A stretch of 64,000 nucleotides of DNA from Shouchella miscanthi (lineage in GTDB: Bacteria > Bacillota > Bacilli > Bacillales > Bacillaceae_D), in the NCBI RefSeq assembly GCF_007725405.1, contig NZ_CP042163.1, positions 2,418,001 through 2,482,000 on the forward strand, read 5' to 3'. The position numbers and the translations under genes were made by a program. The notes below the pieces were generated by a model that was given only the letters and a program-made list of their open reading frames with translations, was not told where the DNA came from and made no database searches. This document shows, one piece after another, positions 13,914-24,075 of the stretch (positions are counted from its first letter, which is position 1; the number at the start of each line of letters is the position of its first letter).

Positions 13914-14017
13914 TGACAACCGTTCTTTTCCTCTTCATTCGAGCTTCATGCGCATAATTTCTGTCACTTGATCATTGATTAATAGTAATCGTGCACACAT
14001 CATTGGAGGGATCTACG

Positions 14018-14824
14018 ATGATAACCATTCAAGATAAACCGTTAAATACATCTTCATTACCAGCTTTATCCCAAATCGAAACAGCTATCATTCAAAGTTT
14101 GGCTAGTCAAAGCGTTTCCTACAACTACGCATCTTTACAAGAGTTGAGCTTCGAACTAGCGTTACGAAAACACACGATTCACGCTTCTATTAGTTTGTTG
14201 CAAAGCGGGGCTCGTTTTGAATCGTTTATGCGCTCAACTTGTAATCCACGCTTTTGGAGACGAATGCCTAATGGTGCTTTTCAATTAAATCCTTATGTTC
14301 GTCCATCTGATGCCATCGAGGATATTTTTCAAAATGGGCAGCTGTATGGCTTTGAGTGCGCAACGGCCATTATTATTATTTTTTATAAAGCAGTGAAAGA
14401 CTCCATTGATCAACAATCCTTTGACCAATTGTTTCAGCAACTCTATTTATATTCTTGGGAACATGATGAAGATTTGCAGTTAGAAACACGAGCAGGAACA
14501 GACTACGTAATTGGTGACTGTCTTTACTTTGATAATCCTGATTTTGCACCTCAGCACTCAGTATGGCGGGGAGAAAATGTTATTAAGCTTAATGATAATT
14601 TATACTATGGTCATGGAATTGCCATTCGCACGTCTGAAGAAATCATTTATCATTTGAATCAAATGCGACGTCCTGGCGCAACTACCACGGCTCATTTACT
14701 TCCTCAAGTAACACGGTTAAACTTTACATTTGTGCGTACCTTTTCAAGCAATGGGTATACACCAAGAACGTCTCTTGATTCTGCGGTTACCATTCAAACC
14801 GGCAACCAAACAAGATTATCGTAA
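14018..14824 (+). CDS. tgl: Spore coat protein-glutamine gamma-glutamyltransferase Tgl
   Basis: A transglutaminase that cross-links coat proteins such as GerQ in the maturing spore. The 268 residues carry the catalytic Cys114 in YGFECATA, plus the downstream GDCLYFDNPDF, WRGENVI (catalytic Glu) and YYGHGI (catalytic His) segments of B. subtilis Tgl. GGAGGG, 7 bases upstream, supports the ATG chosen over an in-frame ATG 9 codons earlier. It diverges from miaB and converges on spoVS. A sigma-K promoter is expected, but I did not find a convincing CATAnnnTA element in the 80 bases upstream. Confidence 0.95.
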   Translation: MITIQDKPLNTSSLPALSQIETAIIQSLASQSVSYNYASLQELSFELALRKHTIHASISLLQSGARFESFMRSTCNPRFWRRMPNGAFQLNPYVRPSDAIEDIFQNGQLYGFECATAIIIIFYKAVKDSIDQQSFDQLFQQLYLYSWEHDEDLQLETRAGTDYVIGDCLYFDNPDFAPQHSVWRGENVIKLNDNLYYGHGIAIRTSEEIIYHLNQMRRPGATTTAHLLPQVTRLNFTFVRTFSSNGYTPRTSLDSAVTIQTGNQTRLS

Positions 14825-16060: not shown

Positions 16061-16088
16061 AAATAAAGTGGCTTTCGCCACTTTATTT
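16061..16088 (-). terminator. Terminator-like hairpin after rny
   Basis: AAATAAAGTGGC pairs perfectly with GCCACTTTATTT around TTTC, and overlaps the rny stop codon. The minus-strand T run is short, so read-through to ymdB is plausible. Confidence 0.7.
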
Positions 16089-17660
16089 AGCATATTCAAC
16101 TGCACGAGTTTCACGAATGACAGTAACACGTATATGTCCTGGATAATCTAGCTCTTGCTCAATCTTCTTCGTAATATCTCTAGCAAGACTGTGAGCTAGT
16201 GCGTCATCCACCACATCCGGTCTTACCATAATGCGTACCTCTCGACCGGCTTGAATCGCAAACGTCTTTTCAACACCATCAAATGATTCAGAGATCTCTT
16301 CTAGCTTCTCTAATCTTCGAATGTATGTTTCGAGGGTTTCACGTCTAGCACCAGGTCGAGCAGCTGATAATGCATCTGCTGCTGCAACAAGAGTGGAAAT
16401 AATGGATGTCGCTTCTACATCGCCGTGATGTGAAGCAATCGAGTTGATCACAACCGGATGCTCCTTGTATTTCGTCGCAAGCTCAACACCAATTTCAACA
16501 TGGCTTCCTTCCACTTCATGATCAATTGCTTTTCCAATGTCGTGCAATAAACCTGCACGCTTCGCTAGTTTAACATCCTCACCAAGTTCGGCAGCCATTA
16601 AGCCTGTCAAATGAGCGACTTCCATTGAATGTTTTAAGACATTTTGACCATAGCTTGTGCGGAAACGAAGTCGACCTAAAATCTTTATCAAATCAGGATG
16701 AAGACCATGAACGCCTACTTCAAATGTTGTTTGTTCACCATATTCGCGTATCGTTTCATCGACTTCTCTTCTTGATTTATCGACCATTTCTTCAATTCGA
16801 GCTGGATGAATTCGACCGTCTTGCACAAGTTTCTCTAACGCAGACCGCGCAATTTCACGACGAATTGGATCAAAGCCAGAAAGAATAACCGCTTCCGGTG
16901 TGTCATCAATAATTAAATCAATACCTGTCAACGTCTCTAAGGCTCGAATGTTACGACCTTCGCGTCCGATAATGCGGCCTTTCATTTCGTCGTTCGGCAG
17001 ATTCACTACTGAAACCGTTGTTTCGGCAACATGATCCGCTGAGCAACGTTGAATAGCGAGAGAAAGAATTTCTTTCGATCGCTTGTCCGCCGTTTCTTTT
17101 GCTTCAGCTAACTTTTCTTTAATGAGAATTGCTGACTCTTGAGCTACTTCTTGCTCAACTTCTTGGCGTATAATCATTCGTGCTTCTTCTCGGCTTAAGC
17201 CAGACACCCGCTCTAATTCTTGTTTTTGGTCCAGCAGCAGCTGGCTCATTTTACTTTCCATCTCTTCAACTTGTCGTTGTTTTTTGGCGAGAGATTCCTC
17301 TCGTTTTTCTAATGACTCTTCTTTCTTATCGAGAGTTTCACTTTTCCGATCTAGAATCTCTTCTTTTTGAACCAAACGATGCTCTTGTTTCTGAATCTCA
17401 TTTCTTCGCTCACGTACGTCGCGTTCTGCATCACTTCTTAGCTTGTGAACCTCGTCTTTTACTTCGAGAATCGCTTCTTTTTTGTTCGTTTCTGCTTCAC
17501 GCGTCGCATCATCAATGATTTGCTTTGCTGCTTGCTCCGCACTTGAAATTTTCCGTTCAGCGATTGATTTTCGAACAAGATATCCAACAACTGCAAAAAC
17601 TACAGAGAAAGCAAGTACAATGAGGCTTAGAACCAAGAGATTTAATTCAATGCTTGGCAT
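16083..17660 (-). CDS. rny: Ribonuclease Y
   Basis: The membrane-anchored endoribonuclease that starts much mRNA decay in Bacillus. The order is: N-terminal membrane helix (about residues 5-27), a long charged coiled coil (about 30-205), a KH domain with [13 protein letters not shown], then an HD domain with [12 protein letters not shown]. 525 residues against about 520 in B. subtilis. GGAGGTG fixes the ATG at MPSIELN. A near-consensus promoter and a structured leader of about 100 bases precede it. Its regulator RicA and other decay enzymes (PNPase, RNase J2) are also in this window. Confidence 0.97.
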
Positions 17661-17720
17661 CGTTACACCTCCCTTGCTATCCAATTGTTGGTTTAAATGT
17701 TTCACATTTGTTAATCAATA

Positions 17721-17770: not shown

Positions 17771-17799
17771 ATTTTACGCTTCACATCTTTTAATGTCAA
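17771..17799 (-). promoter_or_regulatory. Strong sigma-A promoter of rny
   Basis: TTGACA (17794-17799) is a perfect -35 and TAAAAT (17771-17776) is the -10, with 17 bases between. The -35 overlaps the stop codon of the upstream ATPase gene, so rny has a transcript independent of the Rad50-like operon. Confidence 0.8.
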
Positions 17800-18464
17800 G
17801 GGCTCGTCGCTTCTTCTACTTGGCTGATTCCATCCCGTATTGTTACGATAAATGCTTTATCTCCTGATTCCGTTAAATGATGATTGTGCGTAATCATCAG
17901 TATCTGTCGATCAAACATTGTCGCAAGAGATTTTAAGAACTCATATAAATAATGCGTATACTCTCCTGATACATGTTTTCCCGGTTCATCTAAGAGCAAT
18001 GGACCTGATTGCCTCGGTTGAGTCGTTTCCATTAATGCGACACGTAGTGCAAGAGTAACAATGTCTACGACCCCACCGCCTCTAGCATCCTGCGGCTTCG
18101 TTTTTATTTTCATACCATCGTAGTTAGAAACAACAAACATTTCTGCTACCGCTCTGTTACCATGTTCTTCAAGTTCAATTTCAAAAGCGATCATTGGCCC
18201 AAATACATATTGCAGTGCGTTCGTTACTAATGTTTCCATTTGCTGCTTCGCTTGCTTTCGTGCATACTCTGCCGATTGCTGTAACAGCACTCTCGCTTTT
18301 TCATAGGTGTCAAGGGTTTCTTCATATTCCTTTAAAGCCACTGTTGCTTGTTGAATTTTCTCATTAATAACGTTTCGCTTCTCATCTAAGCGCGTCCACT
18401 GATCGTTCTTCTCTCTTAAAGCACGCTCAAGGGCAACAATTGATTCTTGATTTTGATTAGTCAC
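17796..18464 (-). CDS. C-terminal half of a split Rad50/SbcC-like ATPase
   Basis: A 222-residue protein with a coiled-coil arm (about residues 8-80) followed by the C-lobe of an SMC/Rad50 ATPase. An RGGGVVDI signature (128-135) stands where LSGG is usual. Walker B is LLLDEP (156-161), the D-loop region is KHVS (163-166) and the H-loop is ITHN (His193). No Walker A is present; that lies in the 477-residue protein two genes upstream. The two presumably dimerise into one ATPase head. The GTG start overlaps the preceding frame by 8 bases. The signature resembles phage SbcC-like proteins from memory. No terminator is seen; the rny promoter overlaps its end. Confidence 0.85.
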   Translation of the reverse strand: MTNQNQESIVALERALREKNDQWTRLDEKRNVINEKIQQATVALKEYEETLDTYEKARVLLQQSAEYARKQAKQQMETLVTNALQYVFGPMIAFEIELEEHGNRAVAEMFVVSNYDGMKIKTKPQDARGGGVVDIVTLALRVALMETTQPRQSGPLLLDEPGKHVSGEYTHYLYEFLKSLATMFDRQILMITHNHHLTESGDKAFIVTIRDGISQVEEATSP

Positions 18465-18708
18465 GAGCGATCAATTCTTTCGGGATAAGTGACCATGCCC
18501 GTTCCATTGATTGCTCAATCTCTGCCTCTAACTTTACAATCTCTTCGTCTAAGTCTTCTGGCTGAACACCTAACTCTTCTAGTTCTTCAAGCAAGCGCTT
18601 CTTTTGATTCTCTAATTCTTCTAATTTTGCTTCTGCTCGATAACGCAGATCTTTTGCTTTATCAATGGCTTGCTTCATTTTATCTAAATCTTGCTCAACT
18701 TGTTTCAT
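18457..18708 (-). CDS. Small coiled-coil protein of the split Rad50-like operon
   Basis: An 83-residue, highly charged helical protein. Residues about 1-65 are heptad-like (LDKMKQAIDKA, KLEELENQKKRLLEELEEL) and predict one coiled coil, followed by LIPKELIARD. It has no known catalytic motif. Its ATG overlaps the stop of the N-terminal ATPase gene (ATGA), with AAGGAGGAG just upstream. Its end overlaps the next frame by 8 bases. By position it could be part of the returning arm of the Rad50-like coil or an adaptor. I do not recognise the family. Confidence 0.75.
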   Translation of the reverse strand: MKQVEQDLDKMKQAIDKAKDLRYRAEAKLEELENQKKRLLEELEELGVQPEDLDEEIVKLEAEIEQSMERAWSLIPKELIARD

Positions 18709-20138
18709 TTTGACTCCTCCTTCTGCTTTATTGGTTGTCCACATGTTGGACAAAGATTTAACGCGCTTAATGCCTCCGTATAACGTGCAACTTGTTCTTG
18801 TTCTTGTTGTTTGGAATGCGCTACAAACGCAGCCCCTTCTTCTAAACGCTTCTTTAAAAGCGTAATCTTTTCTTGGTAACGTGAAAGCACTTGCGTGCGT
18901 TCAAATGTTTGCGAAACACTTTCCGCTAGCGGATACGCTTGTAACACCGTATGTGCAAGCTGCTTTCGCTTTAATAACTCATTCTCTTCGTCAGTCGTTT
19001 TTTGCAGCCATTCTAAACGTTCTCGTAACTGTTGGGTCTTCATTACTTTCTTGCGTAAATCCGTTACGTGTTCCTCATTAAACGATTGTAAAAAGTGTGT
19101 TCGCTCTAAGTGGGCTTTCAATGCCGCTATATTCTCTGTCACGTTTTCCTTATTCTTCTTAAGCCGCTGTAAATGGAGCGTCTGGGTCACCTTATTTGCT
19201 AATGCTTTCGCCAGCTGGTCAACCTCGTCAATCGACTCCGTTTTCGTAAGCCATGTCTGACAGGTTGAAAGGTCCTTTGAAATACGTTGCCACTCACTTT
19301 GGACAGAAGAAAGCTGATAGCGCTTTGCTGTTAATTGCTGTAATTTTAAAAATAGCAACTCCCATGTATTTAGATCTTTTACCTTAGAAATGGTTTGATC
19401 CAGTTGACTTTTTTGACCATTCAATTGCTTAAACTGTTCACTTAAACGTTTTAGTACTTGAACCTTTTGTGCATGTTCCTTTACTCGTTCAAGTAAACGA
19501 AAACCTTCGTCTAATTGCTGCTTTGCTTGATCAAGAGGCTTGAATGGTTCCAGTTCTTTCGCTGCTGCTTCTAATTCTTGTTCTTTCCACTTCACCCTTT
19601 GTGTTAGCTGTGAAACGTCTTTTGATGTATCACGAATTGCCATATCTAAATAATGAGCTCCACTCATTCTACCAATGGTTTTCGCTCGTATTGAACCGGT
19701 TTGTTCCAGTAAAAACGGTCCTTCTAATTGTTGAGCAATTTGCAGCTGCCACTCATGATCGGCATCAATTCGAAACGGTCGCATTTGATGAGCGTTTAAG
19801 ACTTCCTCTGGTACCGACGAACCGAAACCTTCCAATACGAGATCATCTTGACCCTTTTTTTTAATGATATAGCGGTTCTTCGATGACGTCCGTTCACGCA
19901 CAAGTGTATGACCGTTTTCAAATTCAATTGTCACCCGTACAAAGTCCGCCCCGACTTTTAAAAAATCTGTCCCTCGTGGTTGATTAAAAAGTGCCCAGCG
20001 AACCCCTCTTAACACCGCTGTTTTACCACTATCTGATTGTCCGACAACAACGTTTAAACCTTTGGATAAAGAAACCATTGTATCTAAATGAGATTGAAAA
20101 TTCTCAAGCCGGACGGAAACCATTTTACTCAGTTTCAT
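18705..20138 (-). CDS. N-terminal half of a split Rad50/SbcC-like ATPase with zinc hook
   Basis: A 477-residue AAA_23-type protein. The N-lobe has VSVRLENFQSHLDT, then Walker A GQSDSGKT (33-40) and RGVRWALFNQPRG. A long coiled coil covers roughly residues 170-450. It ends in CPTCGQP (Cys463, Cys466), the zinc-hook motif that sits at the tip of Rad50/SbcC coils. The protein stops 11 residues later, so the second arm and Walker B must come from the downstream genes. Start ATG is preceded by GGGAG; a GTG one codon earlier is possible. The nuclease gene upstream overlaps it by 14 bases. This arrangement points to a Mre11-Rad50 type complex handling DNA ends. Confidence 0.88.
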   Translation of the reverse strand: MKLSKMVSVRLENFQSHLDTMVSLSKGLNVVVGQSDSGKTAVLRGVRWALFNQPRGTDFLKVGADFVRVTIEFENGHTLVRERTSSKNRYIIKKKGQDDLVLEGFGSSVPEEVLNAHQMRPFRIDADHEWQLQIAQQLEGPFLLEQTGSIRAKTIGRMSGAHYLDMAIRDTSKDVSQLTQRVKWKEQELEAAAKELEPFKPLDQAKQQLDEGFRLLERVKEHAQKVQVLKRLSEQFKQLNGQKSQLDQTISKVKDLNTWELLFLKLQQLTAKRYQLSSVQSEWQRISKDLSTCQTWLTKTESIDEVDQLAKALANKVTQTLHLQRLKKNKENVTENIAALKAHLERTHFLQSFNEEHVTDLRKKVMKTQQLRERLEWLQKTTDEENELLKRKQLAHTVLQAYPLAESVSQTFERTQVLSRYQEKITLLKKRLEEGAAFVAHSKQQEQEQVARYTEALSALNLCPTCGQPIKQKEESK

Positions 20139-21114
20139 CACGCTCCCATCGCTCTTCTATAAGCGTCATTCGCCTCAACGCCTCTTCTCTTACTTTTTCT
20201 TCCACATTGGACATGGCTGCGATTTCACGAATGATTTCACCCATTTGTAGCGTTTCAAAATTCGCTTTTTCTTTCACTTGCTGTACGAAGGCATGGAGCT
20301 TTTCCTCTTGATGGCTCGCTTTTTCTACGTAAGATCGATCTAAAACAGCTTCACCTTTTTGTGCTTTCAACTGTATCTCTTTCAACCTAATTCCAGATTC
20401 GTCTACTTCACCAAGGATGACAGTCGGCATCCGCTCTATTTCTGTCCAATGGTTGTTTATTCGTGCTAGTGCACCTGGGTTGCAAATTAATGTACCGTCT
20501 TTTTCCTTAATGCCAAAACCACTATGAAAATGACCAGTGAAAATGACGTCTGCGGTTGTTCCCCAAATATGGTCAATTAATGTGTGGGGCACCCCTTCTG
20601 GTAGCGCTCTTTCAACGAGCATACTATGAACAAGGTGAATCATGTATGTAGCATCAGTTTCATTAACAGGGTAATAATCAAGCTTTGGGTCCCGTTGATC
20701 AAGGTCATAGTGGTAAGGTTGCCCAGATAGCTGAACCCGAACACCCTCTTTTTCTACTAAAACTGGTTGATCTGGGTGAATAAGAGTCATAATGCCAAAA
20801 GCATCAAGAAGCCCTAGCATCGTCCGTGTTACAGTTAAAGGATTATGCCCAAATGTGTCGTGATTGCCAGCTATCGCATAAATAGGTGCTTTCGCCTTTC
20901 TAAATAACTGCGCAAACTGCCCAACTGTGCTCGGCGACAAATCAGGTCGGTCGAACACATCTCCACCATGGAGTAAAAAATCCACCTGATGCTCGTTAGC
21001 CAAAGCCATTACTTGATCAATTTTATCTTTAATAGTATCAGGAAACGAGTCTAAACGATTTTTCGGGGTCGTACCACGTATATGCGTATCAGTAAAGTAA
21101 AGGAATGATATCAT
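20125..21114 (-). CDS. Mre11/SbcD-like nuclease (metallophosphoesterase)
   Basis: A 329-residue calcineurin-like phosphoesterase with all Mre11 nuclease motifs: DTH (residues 9-11), GGDVFDR (50-56), AGNHD (82-86), a His at 163 and TGHFHSG (193-199). The C-terminal part (about 235-329) is charged and helical, suited to docking on the ATPase coil. It is shorter than chromosomal SbcD (about 390). GAAGGA 6 bases upstream supports the ATG. It heads an operon with the two ATPase halves and the small coil, directly downstream of recA, which suggests double-strand-break or palindrome processing. Confidence 0.88.
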   Translation of the reverse strand: MISFLYFTDTHIRGTTPKNRLDSFPDTIKDKIDQVMALANEHQVDFLLHGGDVFDRPDLSPSTVGQFAQLFRKAKAPIYAIAGNHDTFGHNPLTVTRTMLGLLDAFGIMTLIHPDQPVLVEKEGVRVQLSGQPYHYDLDQRDPKLDYYPVNETDATYMIHLVHSMLVERALPEGVPHTLIDHIWGTTADVIFTGHFHSGFGIKEKDGTLICNPGALARINNHWTEIERMPTVILGEVDESGIRLKEIQLKAQKGEAVLDRSYVEKASHQEEKLHAFVQQVKEKANFETLQMGEIIREIAAMSNVEEKVREEALRRMTLIEERWERDETE

Positions 21115-21176: not shown

Positions 21177-21212
21177 AAAAGACTTTCCTTTTAAAAAACA
21201 GGAAAGTCTTTT
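21177..21212 (-). terminator. Terminator of recA
   Basis: AAAGACTTTCCT pairs with AGGAAAGTCTTT across a 10-base loop, with A/T flanks on both sides. It lies 8 bases after the recA stop. Confidence 0.88.
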
Positions 21213-21220
21213 GGCTATTA

Positions 21221-22270
21221 CTATTTTAAATCTAGAGGAACATCTTCAAAAGATTCTTTATCAGCTTCTTCTACTTTTACTTCTCCATCAAGATTGTGCT
21301 CATCACGAATTTTCCGTTCGATTTCAGCTGTAATCTCCACGTTTTCTTTTAGGAATTGTTTCGAGTTCTCACGACCTTGACCTAAGCGATCACCGTTGTA
21401 AGAATACCACGCACCACTCTTATCCACAATCTCTAAATCCGTAGCAATATCAAGAATGGATCCTTCTCTTGAAATTCCTTCGCCATACATAATATCCACT
21501 TCAGCAAGGCGGAATGGAGGCGCTACTTTGTTTTTCACTACTTTAATTTTGGTACGGTTTCCGACAATATCGTTTCCTTGTTTCAGTGCCTCAGCCCGTC
21601 GCACTTCTAAACGAACAGAAGAATAGAACTTAAGCGCACGTCCACCTGGAGTTGTTTCGGGGTTTCCGAACATCACGCCGACTTTTTCACGAATTTGATT
21701 GATAAAGACCGCTACGGTTTTCGATTTGTTAATTGCGCCAGATAGTTTTCTTAACGCTTGCGACATCAAACGAGCCTGCAAGCCGACGTGAGAATCTCCC
21801 ATTTCGCCTTCAATCTCTGCTTTCGGAACAAGAGCAGCGACACTATCAATAACAATCATATCCAGAGCGCCACTTCGTACAAGCGCCTCAGCGATTTCTA
21901 ATGCTTGTTCGCCTGTGTCAGGTTGAGACAGAAGCAATTCGTCTACATTTACACCAAGTTTACCAGCATAAACAGGGTCTAAAGCGTGCTCTGCATCAAT
22001 AAATGCAGCTTGACCACCTTGACGTTGTACTTCAGCAATAGCGTGAAGAGCAACTGTCGTTTTACCAGAAGACTCTGGTCCGTAAACTTCAATAACTCTA
22101 CCTTTTGGATAGCCACCAACACCTAAAGCAATATCTAAAGCTAGTGCACCACTTGAAACGGTTGAGATTCGTTGCTCCGCTCTCTCTCCTAATTTCATGA
22201 CAGAACCTTTACCAAACTGCTTTTCGATCTGGCGTAAGGCCATATCTAACGCTTGTTTCCGATCACTCAT
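21221..22270 (-). CDS. recA: RecA recombinase
   Basis: Forms ATP-dependent filaments on single-stranded DNA, promotes strand exchange and triggers LexA self-cleavage. Walker A is GPESSGKTT and Walker B is [10 protein letters not shown]. Loops L1 ([18 protein letters not shown]) and L2 ([20 protein letters not shown]) are intact. 349 residues with an acidic tail. GGAGATG precedes the ATG. A LexA box and a sigma-A promoter are present. The B. subtilis neighbour pbpX is absent; the split Mre11-Rad50 operon follows instead. Confidence 0.99.
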
Positions 22271-22458: not shown

Positions 22459-24075
22459 TTATGAACGGCGACCTGCAGCATGAGGACGACGCTCACGCTT
22501 AGGACGAGGCTTCGCCGGCTCTAAATTGACTCTAGCACCGTTGATTCTCGAATAGCGCAGACCTTCATATGCAAATGGTGCGCTCTCTTCAGGTACATCG
22601 ACGAACGAGAAGTTATCAAAGATATCAATACGTCCAATCGTTTTCACTGGAATACCAATTAAGCGACTAATTTCCTCACCAAGAATTTTCGGTGTTAAAT
22701 TGACGTTACGGCCGACGTTAATAAAGAAACGAACCATTCCTTTTGCTCCACCTGTTTCACCAAAGCTATAGCCCGCATCCTCACTTGCTGTTTCGGTCGA
22801 GAATTTCAGTTTTAGTAATGCAGAAATGATTTCTTTTGCGTCGACTTCTTCTTCTAACATTTGATCAGCGAGCGGACGGAATAATTCCATCTCTTTCCCA
22901 CCTGATTCGATTGTTTCTTTAATCAAATTTTTCCATGATGTTTGTTGTTTTTCAACCACATCTTCAATGGTTGGTACTTCTTGAGACGGGATGTACATTT
23001 TTATTTCTTTTTCAATTGAACGTAAGTGCTTCATTTCCCTTGGCGTCACAAGCGTAATTGCTGCACCCGTCCGGCCTGCACGACCTGTACGACCAATGCG
23101 GTGAACATAACTCTCTGGATCTTGTGGAATATCGAAGTTAATAACGTGACTCACATTTTCTACATCAATTCCGCGAGCTGCTACATCTGTTGCGATTAAA
23201 AATTCAATGGAAGAATCGCGGAATTTTTTCATCACAACATCACGCTGAGACTGTGTAAGATCTCCATGTAAACCGTCTGCTAAATAACCTCTTGCCTGAA
23301 GTGCTTCTGTTAATTCGGCGACCCCTTTTTTTGTACGGCAGAATAAAATACCAAGATCAACATCATCGCTGTCAATGATTCGACAAAGGGAATCGATTTT
23401 ATTACGCTCCAGCACTTTATAATACACTTGATTGATAGAAGGGGCGGTTACTTCTCCTTTATTAATCGTTACAGTAGCAGGATTGTTCATATAATTTCGT
23501 GATAGCTTACGAATTGCTGGTGGCATTGTTGCTGAGAAAAGAAGCGTTTGCCTTACATCATTCACTTCTTTTAAAATCGCTTCAATGTCTTCAACAAACC
23601 CCATGTCAAGCATTTCATCCGCTTCATCAAGCACGACTGTATGAACCGATTGAAGCTTTAATGTGCCACGACGCAAGTGATCAAGCATTCGACCTGGTGT
23701 ACCGATCACAATTTGTACACCTTGTTTTAACGCTTTAATTTGATGACCTATTGACTGCCCACCATAAATCGGTAGCGTGCGAATTGCTTTGTGCATAGAC
23801 AATTTTTGTAGTTCACCAGCTACTTGAATAGCAAGCTCACGTGTCGGTGTTAAAATAAGTGCTTGAATCGCTCGATCACTTGTCACTTTGTCCACAACAG
23901 GAATACCAAAAGCCGCTGTTTTACCAGTTCCTGTTTGAGCCTGGCCAATGACGTCGCCTCCGGTAAGAATAGCCGGGATGGCTTTTTCTTGGATAGGAGA
24001 TGGCTCTTCAAACCCCATCTCCTTAATTGCTTGTTTTACTTGGTCTGAAATCTCGAAGTCTGAAAAAAATGTCAT
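22459..24075 (-). CDS. DEAD-box RNA helicase with C-terminal DbpA RNA-binding domain
   Basis: A 538-residue ATP-dependent RNA helicase. The core has the Q motif (PSPIQEKAIP), AQTGTGKT, PTRELA, TPGR, DEAD, SAT and HRIGRTGRAG. After a helical linker, residues about 440-515 form a DbpA-type RRM-like domain (MVRFFINVGRNVNL, GRIDIFDNFSFVDVP), as in CsdA/DeaD and YxiN. The tail is Arg-rich (PKPRPKRERR). This suggests ribosome assembly or cold-shock RNA remodelling. The ATG overlaps the cinA stop (ATGA). In B. subtilis no helicase lies between cinA and recA. Confidence 0.94.
   Translation of the reverse strand: MTFFSDFEISDQVKQAIKEMGFEEPSPIQEKAIPAILTGGDVIGQAQTGTGKTAAFGIPVVDKVTSDRAIQALILTPTRELAIQVAGELQKLSMHKAIRTLPIYGGQSIGHQIKALKQGVQIVIGTPGRMLDHLRRGTLKLQSVHTVVLDEADEMLDMGFVEDIEAILKEVNDVRQTLLFSATMPPAIRKLSRNYMNNPATVTINKGEVTAPSINQVYYKVLERNKIDSLCRIIDSDDVDLGILFCRTKKGVAELTEALQARGYLADGLHGDLTQSQRDVVMKKFRDSSIEFLIATDVAARGIDVENVSHVINFDIPQDPESYVHRIGRTGRAGRTGAAITLVTPREMKHLRSIEKEIKMYIPSQEVPTIEDVVEKQQTSWKNLIKETIESGGKEMELFRPLADQMLEEEVDAKEIISALLKLKFSTETASEDAGYSFGETGGAKGMVRFFINVGRNVNLTPKILGEEISRLIGIPVKTIGRIDIFDNFSFVDVPEESAPFAYEGLRYSRINGARVNLEPAKPRPKRERRPHAAGRRS

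Follow-up and report, generated by a model that had tools for sequence, protein, structure and literature searches.

A Mre11-Rad50-type gene set beside recA in Shouchella miscanthi, with Rad50 apparently spread over three proteins

In Shouchella miscanthi, four minus-strand genes between recA and rny, in the order M-N-m-C, appear to encode a Mre11-Rad50-type complex in which the Rad50 part is made as three separate proteins. The genes lie in a stretch of 64,000 nucleotides (contig NZ_CP042163.1; hereafter, the window), in a genome of 4.25 Mb that forms a single contig, and their products are a Mre11/SbcD-type nuclease (M), a Rad50 N-lobe with a rising coil and a zinc-hook motif (N), an 83-residue protein (m) and a short coil with a Rad50 C-lobe (C). 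Rad50 is usually regarded as a single chain, turning back on itself at the hook. We consider it probable, at about 0.8, that the set represents a distinct Mre11-Rad50 lineage, with Rad50 as three chains, which works together with NurA-HerA at a step before RecA and largely takes the place of SbcCD. The case is built, on comparisons of sequence, from the four genes themselves, the conserved separateness of the chains, N and C being homologous to one Rad50 lobe each, the hook, the linkage to recA or to nurA-herA, the co-occurrence with NurA and the near-exclusion of SbcD. An initial annotation of the window had proposed an operon of this type, with Rad50 over separate proteins and possibly a distinct lineage, and this reading has held up.

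Four genes and the parts of Rad50

All four open reading frames (ORFs) named in the initial annotation were confirmed on the minus strand (Table 1). M matches the Metallophos family of calcineurin-like phosphoesterases (E 4.9e-13), and the motifs that mark the nuclease of the Mre11-Rad50 superfamily, DxH, GDxxD, GNHD and GHxH, are present in it as DTH, GGDVFD, GNHD and GHxH, invariant in 21/21 aligned rows; the description of M as a complete-motif nuclease is therefore upheld. Against the SbcD model TIGR00619, M scores 34–35 bits, below the cut-off of 77.65.

The first half of Rad50 is readily recognised in N. The protein matches AAA_23 (E 5.1e-14), and a profile made from N together with 42 relatives matches the N-lobes of solved Rad50 structures (3qkr chain A, E 1.6e-12), while its residues 414–478 match solved zinc hooks (6zff, 3.3e-6; 1l8d, 7.1e-6). 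The Walker A motif, G.SD.GK[ST], is present in 42/43 rows, the exception being L094, which starts late. The hook motif CPxC is found in 43/43 rows, at the predicted tip of the coil and 6–29 residues from the end of the chain; in the window, 11 residues remain after CPTC, just as had been read from the sequence at the outset. In an AlphaFold2 model of N (predicted local distance difference test score, pLDDT, 79; predicted template modelling score, pTM, 0.38), a head of residues 1–160 is followed by helices at 162–254, 257–301, 304–344 and 357–460 and then by the hook. The Foldseek search with N placed only Rad50 or Mre11-Rad50 entries at ranks 1–24, and in VIA-align the heads of SMC, RecF and Rad50 tied and were not separated.

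The second half is found in C, which matches PHROG 15167 (1.2e-60) and, as a profile, the Rad50 C-lobes (3qkr chain B, 1.3e-9, others weaker). DExGKHVS and the H-loop histidine are present in 44/44 rows, and N and C between them hold the N-lobe, with Walker A, and the C-lobe, with Walker B and the H-loop, of an ATP-binding cassette (ABC) ATPase. The earlier description of the C half, with signature, Walker B and H-loop, needs one correction: Walker B and the H-loop stand, but the ABC signature is not canonical, as HMMER aligns GGG to the position of SGG and GGG is found in 44/44 rows. The N and C profiles match different chains of the two-chain Rad50 heads 1f2t, 1ii8, 1us8 and 3qkr (A/B).

The small protein m, whose length of 83 residues is confirmed when counted from its ATG (the mechanical ORF begins further upstream, at a TTG), matches PHROG 18563 (4e-8) and has two prolines that are invariant in 23 rows. 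In an AlphaFold2 model of N and m from a relative, m is a hairpin with helices of 42 and 25 residues flanking a turn; this model has a pTM of 0.34 and a pLDDT under 50–60 in the hook region, and the placement of m on N is not given by it. Among solved structures, the best matches of m were designed repeat proteins and, weakly, the coiled-coil hairpin msmeg_4306 (1.7e-4), with no clear homologue.

Two observations bear on how the pieces may fit together. The first is a single-chain form of 684–700 residues in three genomes of one Bacillota family, in which M is followed by N positions ~3–171 and C positions ~44–216, without coil, hook or m. As this coil-less chain joins both lobes yet lacks m, it suggests that N and C make one ATPase head and that m belongs with the arm. 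The second concerns length. Over 77 loci, N falls into classes near 430, 473 and 525 residues (spans of 424–435 in 21 loci, 460–489 in 50 and 520–530 in five, with one in the 440s), while m (71–83, standard deviation 3.2) and C (174–222, standard deviation 5.4) are near constant. Since N varies in length and m and C hardly do, we think it unlikely that the variable middle of the N arm is paired with either of them. The motif and length survey keeps near-copies among the 77 loci and omits a duplicate (L042), the fused L151–L153, the broken L046 and L052, the cut L086, L154 and L158, as well as any locus that lacks one of the parts.

Conservation, neighbourhood and company

The separateness of the chains is well conserved. 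N has its own frame in 36/36 genomes of the window's family, the window's genome included, and all four genes are under purifying selection, judging by the low ratios of nonsynonymous to synonymous substitution (dN/dS) against the nearest relative, G003 (M 0.02, N 0.12, m 0.08, C 0.05). A scan of named genomes with C gave 50 loci, in 49 of which all four genes were recognised, the exception (L086) being cut by a contig end; no fusion of N to C was found in any of the 50, and none retaining the coil in the loci examined. The only chain with both lobes is the coil-less form described above, and no chain combined both lobes with both strands of the coil. The same split recurs across the family, in other Bacillota and in phages, sometimes with M fused to N: the viral contigs L093 (phage vB_BboS-125) and L094 have the order N-m-C-M, while in the viral loci L095 and L096, M is fused to N and C is separate, with m recognised in L096 and not in L095. 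In the order's other families, one of 24 genomes gave a weak match to N. With the separate N frames and the selection on all four genes, the contention that the split is real and not a frameshift is confirmed.

Part of the original argument for that contention was local. The N and m genes do overlap by 4 bases in the window, but with the starts as chosen they are 1–32 bases apart in 19 of 30 loci, the window's locus among the 30; for this reason, a programmed frameshift joining N to m was also rejected as a general rule. Similarly, of the good ribosome sites put forward, that of m is strong (AAGGAGG), but that of C is not obvious.

As stated from the start, the set directly follows recA. In 36 of the 50 named loci, it has recA and/or rny beside it, and these include two of Peptoniphilus with pgsA-cinA-recA-MNmC-rny; 11 have NurA and/or HerA just upstream and three have neither. 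A further 32 regions from Bacillota, which overlap in species with the named loci (L128 and L043, and L138 and L091, are identical in NurA), divide into eight with recA-MNmC-rny, 11 with NurA-HerA-MNmC, five with C and then M as in phages, three with the single chain and five that are of other kinds or cut. Across 397 genomes of the order, C was found in 24, which consist of 16 from the window's family and eight from five other families; five of these 24 regions were fetched, and they gave three cases of recA-MNmC-rny, one of N-m-C-M and one with only C.

In the window's own genome, nurA and herA are adjacent to each other at about 57.4–60.2 kb (L159 7409–10215), encoding proteins of 319 and 610 residues, and HerA is 47% identical to HerA from an operon. 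NurA was found in 22/22 family genomes searched and in 0/14 others. In a broader sample of 398 Bacillota genomes, C was found in 67, the window's own included; two (G305 and G342, with 42–46 bits and frames of ~560 residues) were set aside, and the window's genome, which is not among the 64 C-positives, stays in the total of 398 and is counted as negative. NurA, present in 72 of the 398, was found in 52/64 C-positive genomes and in 19/334 others (p 2e-37, shared descent not corrected). The two proteins are present in the window's genome, linked to the set in some Bacillota and co-occurring with it in the sample.

SbcD shows the opposite pattern. At E<=1e-18, it was found in 3/64 C-positive genomes and in 165/334 others (Fisher p 4e-13, again with shared descent not corrected), and two of the three genomes with both C and SbcD have the phage-like order (G156 and G445). 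SbcD scored over the model's cut-off in four of the 36 family genomes (G013, G016, G024 and G033), in 0/12 of the genus and in 20/24 others; the same four have frames of SbcC size that carry the Walker B domain of SbcC, and two further family matches to this domain sit in frames of 695 and 1399 residues. In the window's genome, no canonical sbcCD was found by the SbcD model at its cut-off or by the SbcC Walker B model PF13558. The AddAB system was considered as another candidate for replacement and dropped, since both AddA and AddB are complete in the window's genome, and neighbouring AddA/AddB-like genes, though divergent, occur in most genomes of the family. The AddA and AddB models themselves score over the cut-off in 4/36 family genomes, and most of the others have divergent, adjacent AddA/AddB-like proteins (G002, G004, G006–G035).

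At the locus itself, a terminator-like hairpin follows recA, and M-N-m-C therefore probably form a transcription unit separate from it; the hairpin was not listed by a consensus terminator scan as its loop of 10 exceeds the limit of that scan. A promoter scan gave 10 sites against 9.3 expected in shuffles. Of the fetched loci from named genomes, the closest is that of Shouchella oshimensis (L074), with RecA 99.1% and Rny 99.4% identical. Around the set, a DEAD-box RNA helicase with a DbpA domain (22459–24075, minus strand) lies between cinA and recA, likewise in most named family loci, and the spore transglutaminase Tgl (PF20085, 2.7e-99; 13991–14824, plus strand) stands beside the minus-strand genes spoVS-ymdB-rny.

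Table 1. Coordinates of the gene set, its motifs and its flanks in the window, and of the single-chain form in other loci
Feature	Position	Strand	Basis
M, Mre11/SbcD-type nuclease, 329 aa	20125..21114	-	Metallophos match, metal-site motifs
N, Rad50 N-lobe, rising coil and hook, 478 aa	18705..20141	-	AAA_23, AlphaFold2 model, Foldseek
m, 83-residue predicted helical hairpin with GVxP turn	18457..18708	-	Alignment, two invariant prolines, AlphaFold2 model of relative, PHROG 18563
C, short coil and Rad50 C-lobe, 222 aa	17796..18464	-	PHROG 15167, solved Rad50 C-lobes
Walker A GQSDSGKT in N	20019..20042	-	G.SD.GK[ST] in 42/43 rows
CPTC, zinc-hook half at the C-terminus of N	18741..18752	-	CPxC in 43/43 rows; hooks 1l8d, 6zff
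GVQP turn of m	18559..18570	-	Alignment, invariant prolines, model of relative
RGGG, ABC signature position in C (GGG vs canonical Rad50 SGG)	18072..18083	-	HMMER alignment to 3qkr/1ii8/3qku
Walker B LLLDE in C, then PGKHVS at D-loop position	17985..17999	-	DE.GKHVS in 44/44 rows
Terminator-like hairpin 3' of recA, upstream of M	21177..21212	-	-16.4 kcal/mol, z -5.3
recA, upstream neighbour	21221..22270	-	ORF list, flank comparison
rny, downstream neighbour	16083..17705	-	ORF list, flank comparison
Single-chain M + N-lobe + C-lobe	L151 5764-7818; L152 7152-9254; L153 7083-9170		

Competing explanations

The rival that survives best, although we still consider it unlikely, is that the genes were split without mechanistic effect: the three chains would simply add up to a normal SbcC, its descending strand supplied by m and the coil of C, and carry out the function of SbcCD. 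In its favour are a distribution complementary to that of SbcD and the Rad50 heads that have been crystallised from two separate chains (1f2t and 1ii8). The dimensions are harder to reconcile with it. The N coil extends over ~300 residues in the model (162–460), and m (~83) and the coil of C (~75) are together too short to cover it; the length classes of N beside a constant m and C point in the same direction. In addition, the signature is altered in every C row, and SbcCD shows no such tight link to NurA.

That the set is a domesticated phage recombination system, as the initial annotation had offered for one of its possibilities, now looks distinctly improbable. The same split set is found in phages and in prophage-like or plasmid regions, and the best PHROG matches are full length, but the tree speaks against a common grouping. 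In a careful tree of 50 of 70 loci (20 rows left out), three prophage-like copies group with vB_BboS-125 and L094 in a clade supported by 100/98, apart from that of the window's family, supported by 100/100. The gene order in that phage clade is N-m-C-M and not the M-N-m-C of the chromosomes, where the sets are found at fixed places, beside recA-rny or nurA-herA. A recent domestication is unsupported by this tree and by the first one, a quick tree with long branches. The careful tree is unrooted, and because its root is uncertain, the whole lineage may have an old phage origin; L096, on a long branch, has no firm place in it. A third clade, of 23 rows and with a support of 100/100, holds the NurA-HerA loci, among its rows also the single-chain form and two that have no context. 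Some of the row labels should be read with care: NurA-HerA was set in advance for L087 in both trees and for L088 and L089 in the first, and a later flank check found L088 to carry only an end of HerA, and L087 and L089 to carry neither protein, L089 being cut by a contig end, while L079 and L084, labelled as unknown, carry pieces of HerA.

Some details of the mobile copies and of one chromosomal locus deserve recording in their own right. In the record of vB_BboS-125, the Mre11-type M gene (L042 8893–9873) is unannotated and an AP2-domain gene stands between N and m; relatives of the C half are found on nine plasmid records, of Bacillus, Paenibacillus, Geobacillus, Brevibacillus and others. 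In Ammoniphilus (L082 6964–11303), a YhaO-YhaN-like pair directly follows NurA-HerA-M-N-m-C.

Still less probable is an anti-phage defence module like Lamassu, with its LmuB, or MADS. PADLOC does report weak matches, of N to LmuB (8.4e-17) and of C to mads_3 (6.9e-9), but these are partial, and the set occupies a single chromosomal site in all family genomes examined, with no patchy distribution over islands. The Mre11 motifs of M are intact, no extra nuclease or effector adjoins the set, its neighbours in the window are recA and rny, and the linkage to recA and to nurA-herA fits poorly with a defence role. Finally, a sequencing error, frameshift or decaying gene has next to no probability left: frame breaks do happen in drafts, as seen from N in two ORFs in L046 and L052 and M in two in L045, but this reading is refuted by the 36/36 separate N frames, the spacing of N and m, the low dN/dS and the same split in distant Bacillota and phages.

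A possible mechanism and its place among known systems

If the set is indeed a three-chain Mre11-Rad50 complex, N, with the N-lobe, rising coil and hook, and C, with a short coil and the C-lobe, would join to form a bipartite ABC ATPase head, and two such heads would dimerise around ATP, held by a Mre11 dimer at the root of the coil. Two N chains could be linked through zinc at their terminal CPxC pairs, and the m hairpin would lie outside the head, in the arm, which it would stabilise. Driven by ATP, the complex would open, nick or trim DNA ends, and NurA-HerA would then resect the ends, giving the 3' tails used by RecA. A bolder version, which we offer tentatively and regard as rather doubtful in its full extent, has an arm unlike that of known Rad50, where the coil is antiparallel and lies within one chain: two N chains would reach in parallel from the heads to a shared zinc hook, the middle consisting of N only, with m as a hairpin clamp and C fixed only at the root. 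It would then be possible for C, and for m, to depart or be exchanged, which would make the assembly of the head regulatory, and the length of the arm would be set by gain or loss of blocks of ~45–50 residues in N; acting with NurA-HerA, the complex would serve many Bacillota as a general system of end resection, alongside AddAB and in place of SbcCD.

With SbcCD and Mre11-Rad50, the set shares a nuclease with Mre11 motifs, the Rad50-type N-lobe, coil, CPxC hook and C-lobe, and adjacent genes; it differs in having Rad50 in three chains, the hook at a chain end and the extra m, in the GGG signature and the PGKHVS at the D-loop of C, and in an M that scores below the SbcD cut-off. A head made of separate N- and C-chains is also known from 1f2t and 1ii8, which are laboratory fragments of Rad50; here, the division is natural. 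In hyperthermophilic archaea, according to PMC2288612, nurA-herA are linked to rad50-mre11, and several Bacillota families have NurA-HerA directly before M-N-m-C in a similar manner; the split of Rad50 and the presence of m set the bacterial loci apart from the clusters described there, and in the window's family, the set is beside recA and nurA-herA are elsewhere. Fusion proteins of Mre11 and Rad50, including R555 of Mimivirus, are described in PMC3175470 (2011), comparable with M-N in L095 and L096 and with the fusion of M and both lobes in three genomes. For Bacillus phage 0305phi8-36, the same paper says of one P-loop NTPase segment of SbcC that it "was not observed"; in the phage locus L096, the segment reported there as missing is a separate gene. 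The available part of PMC7824862 makes no mention of a split SbcC, and in the open-licence literature, we found no description of a naturally split Rad50 or SbcC.

With Rad50 apparently made as three proteins in many Gram-positive bacteria, the set would provide a natural test of how Mre11-Rad50, a machine for the repair of DNA breaks, works. It has long been asked how the ATP state of the head is relayed to the hook by way of the arm, and the three-chain Rad50, the coil-less relative and the classes of arm length would make the parts separately testable. NurA-HerA, which PMC9960219 limits to a small number of bacteria, Deinococcus-Thermus among them, appears to be wider than described, as judged from its presence in the sampled Bacillota, where it travels with the split complex.

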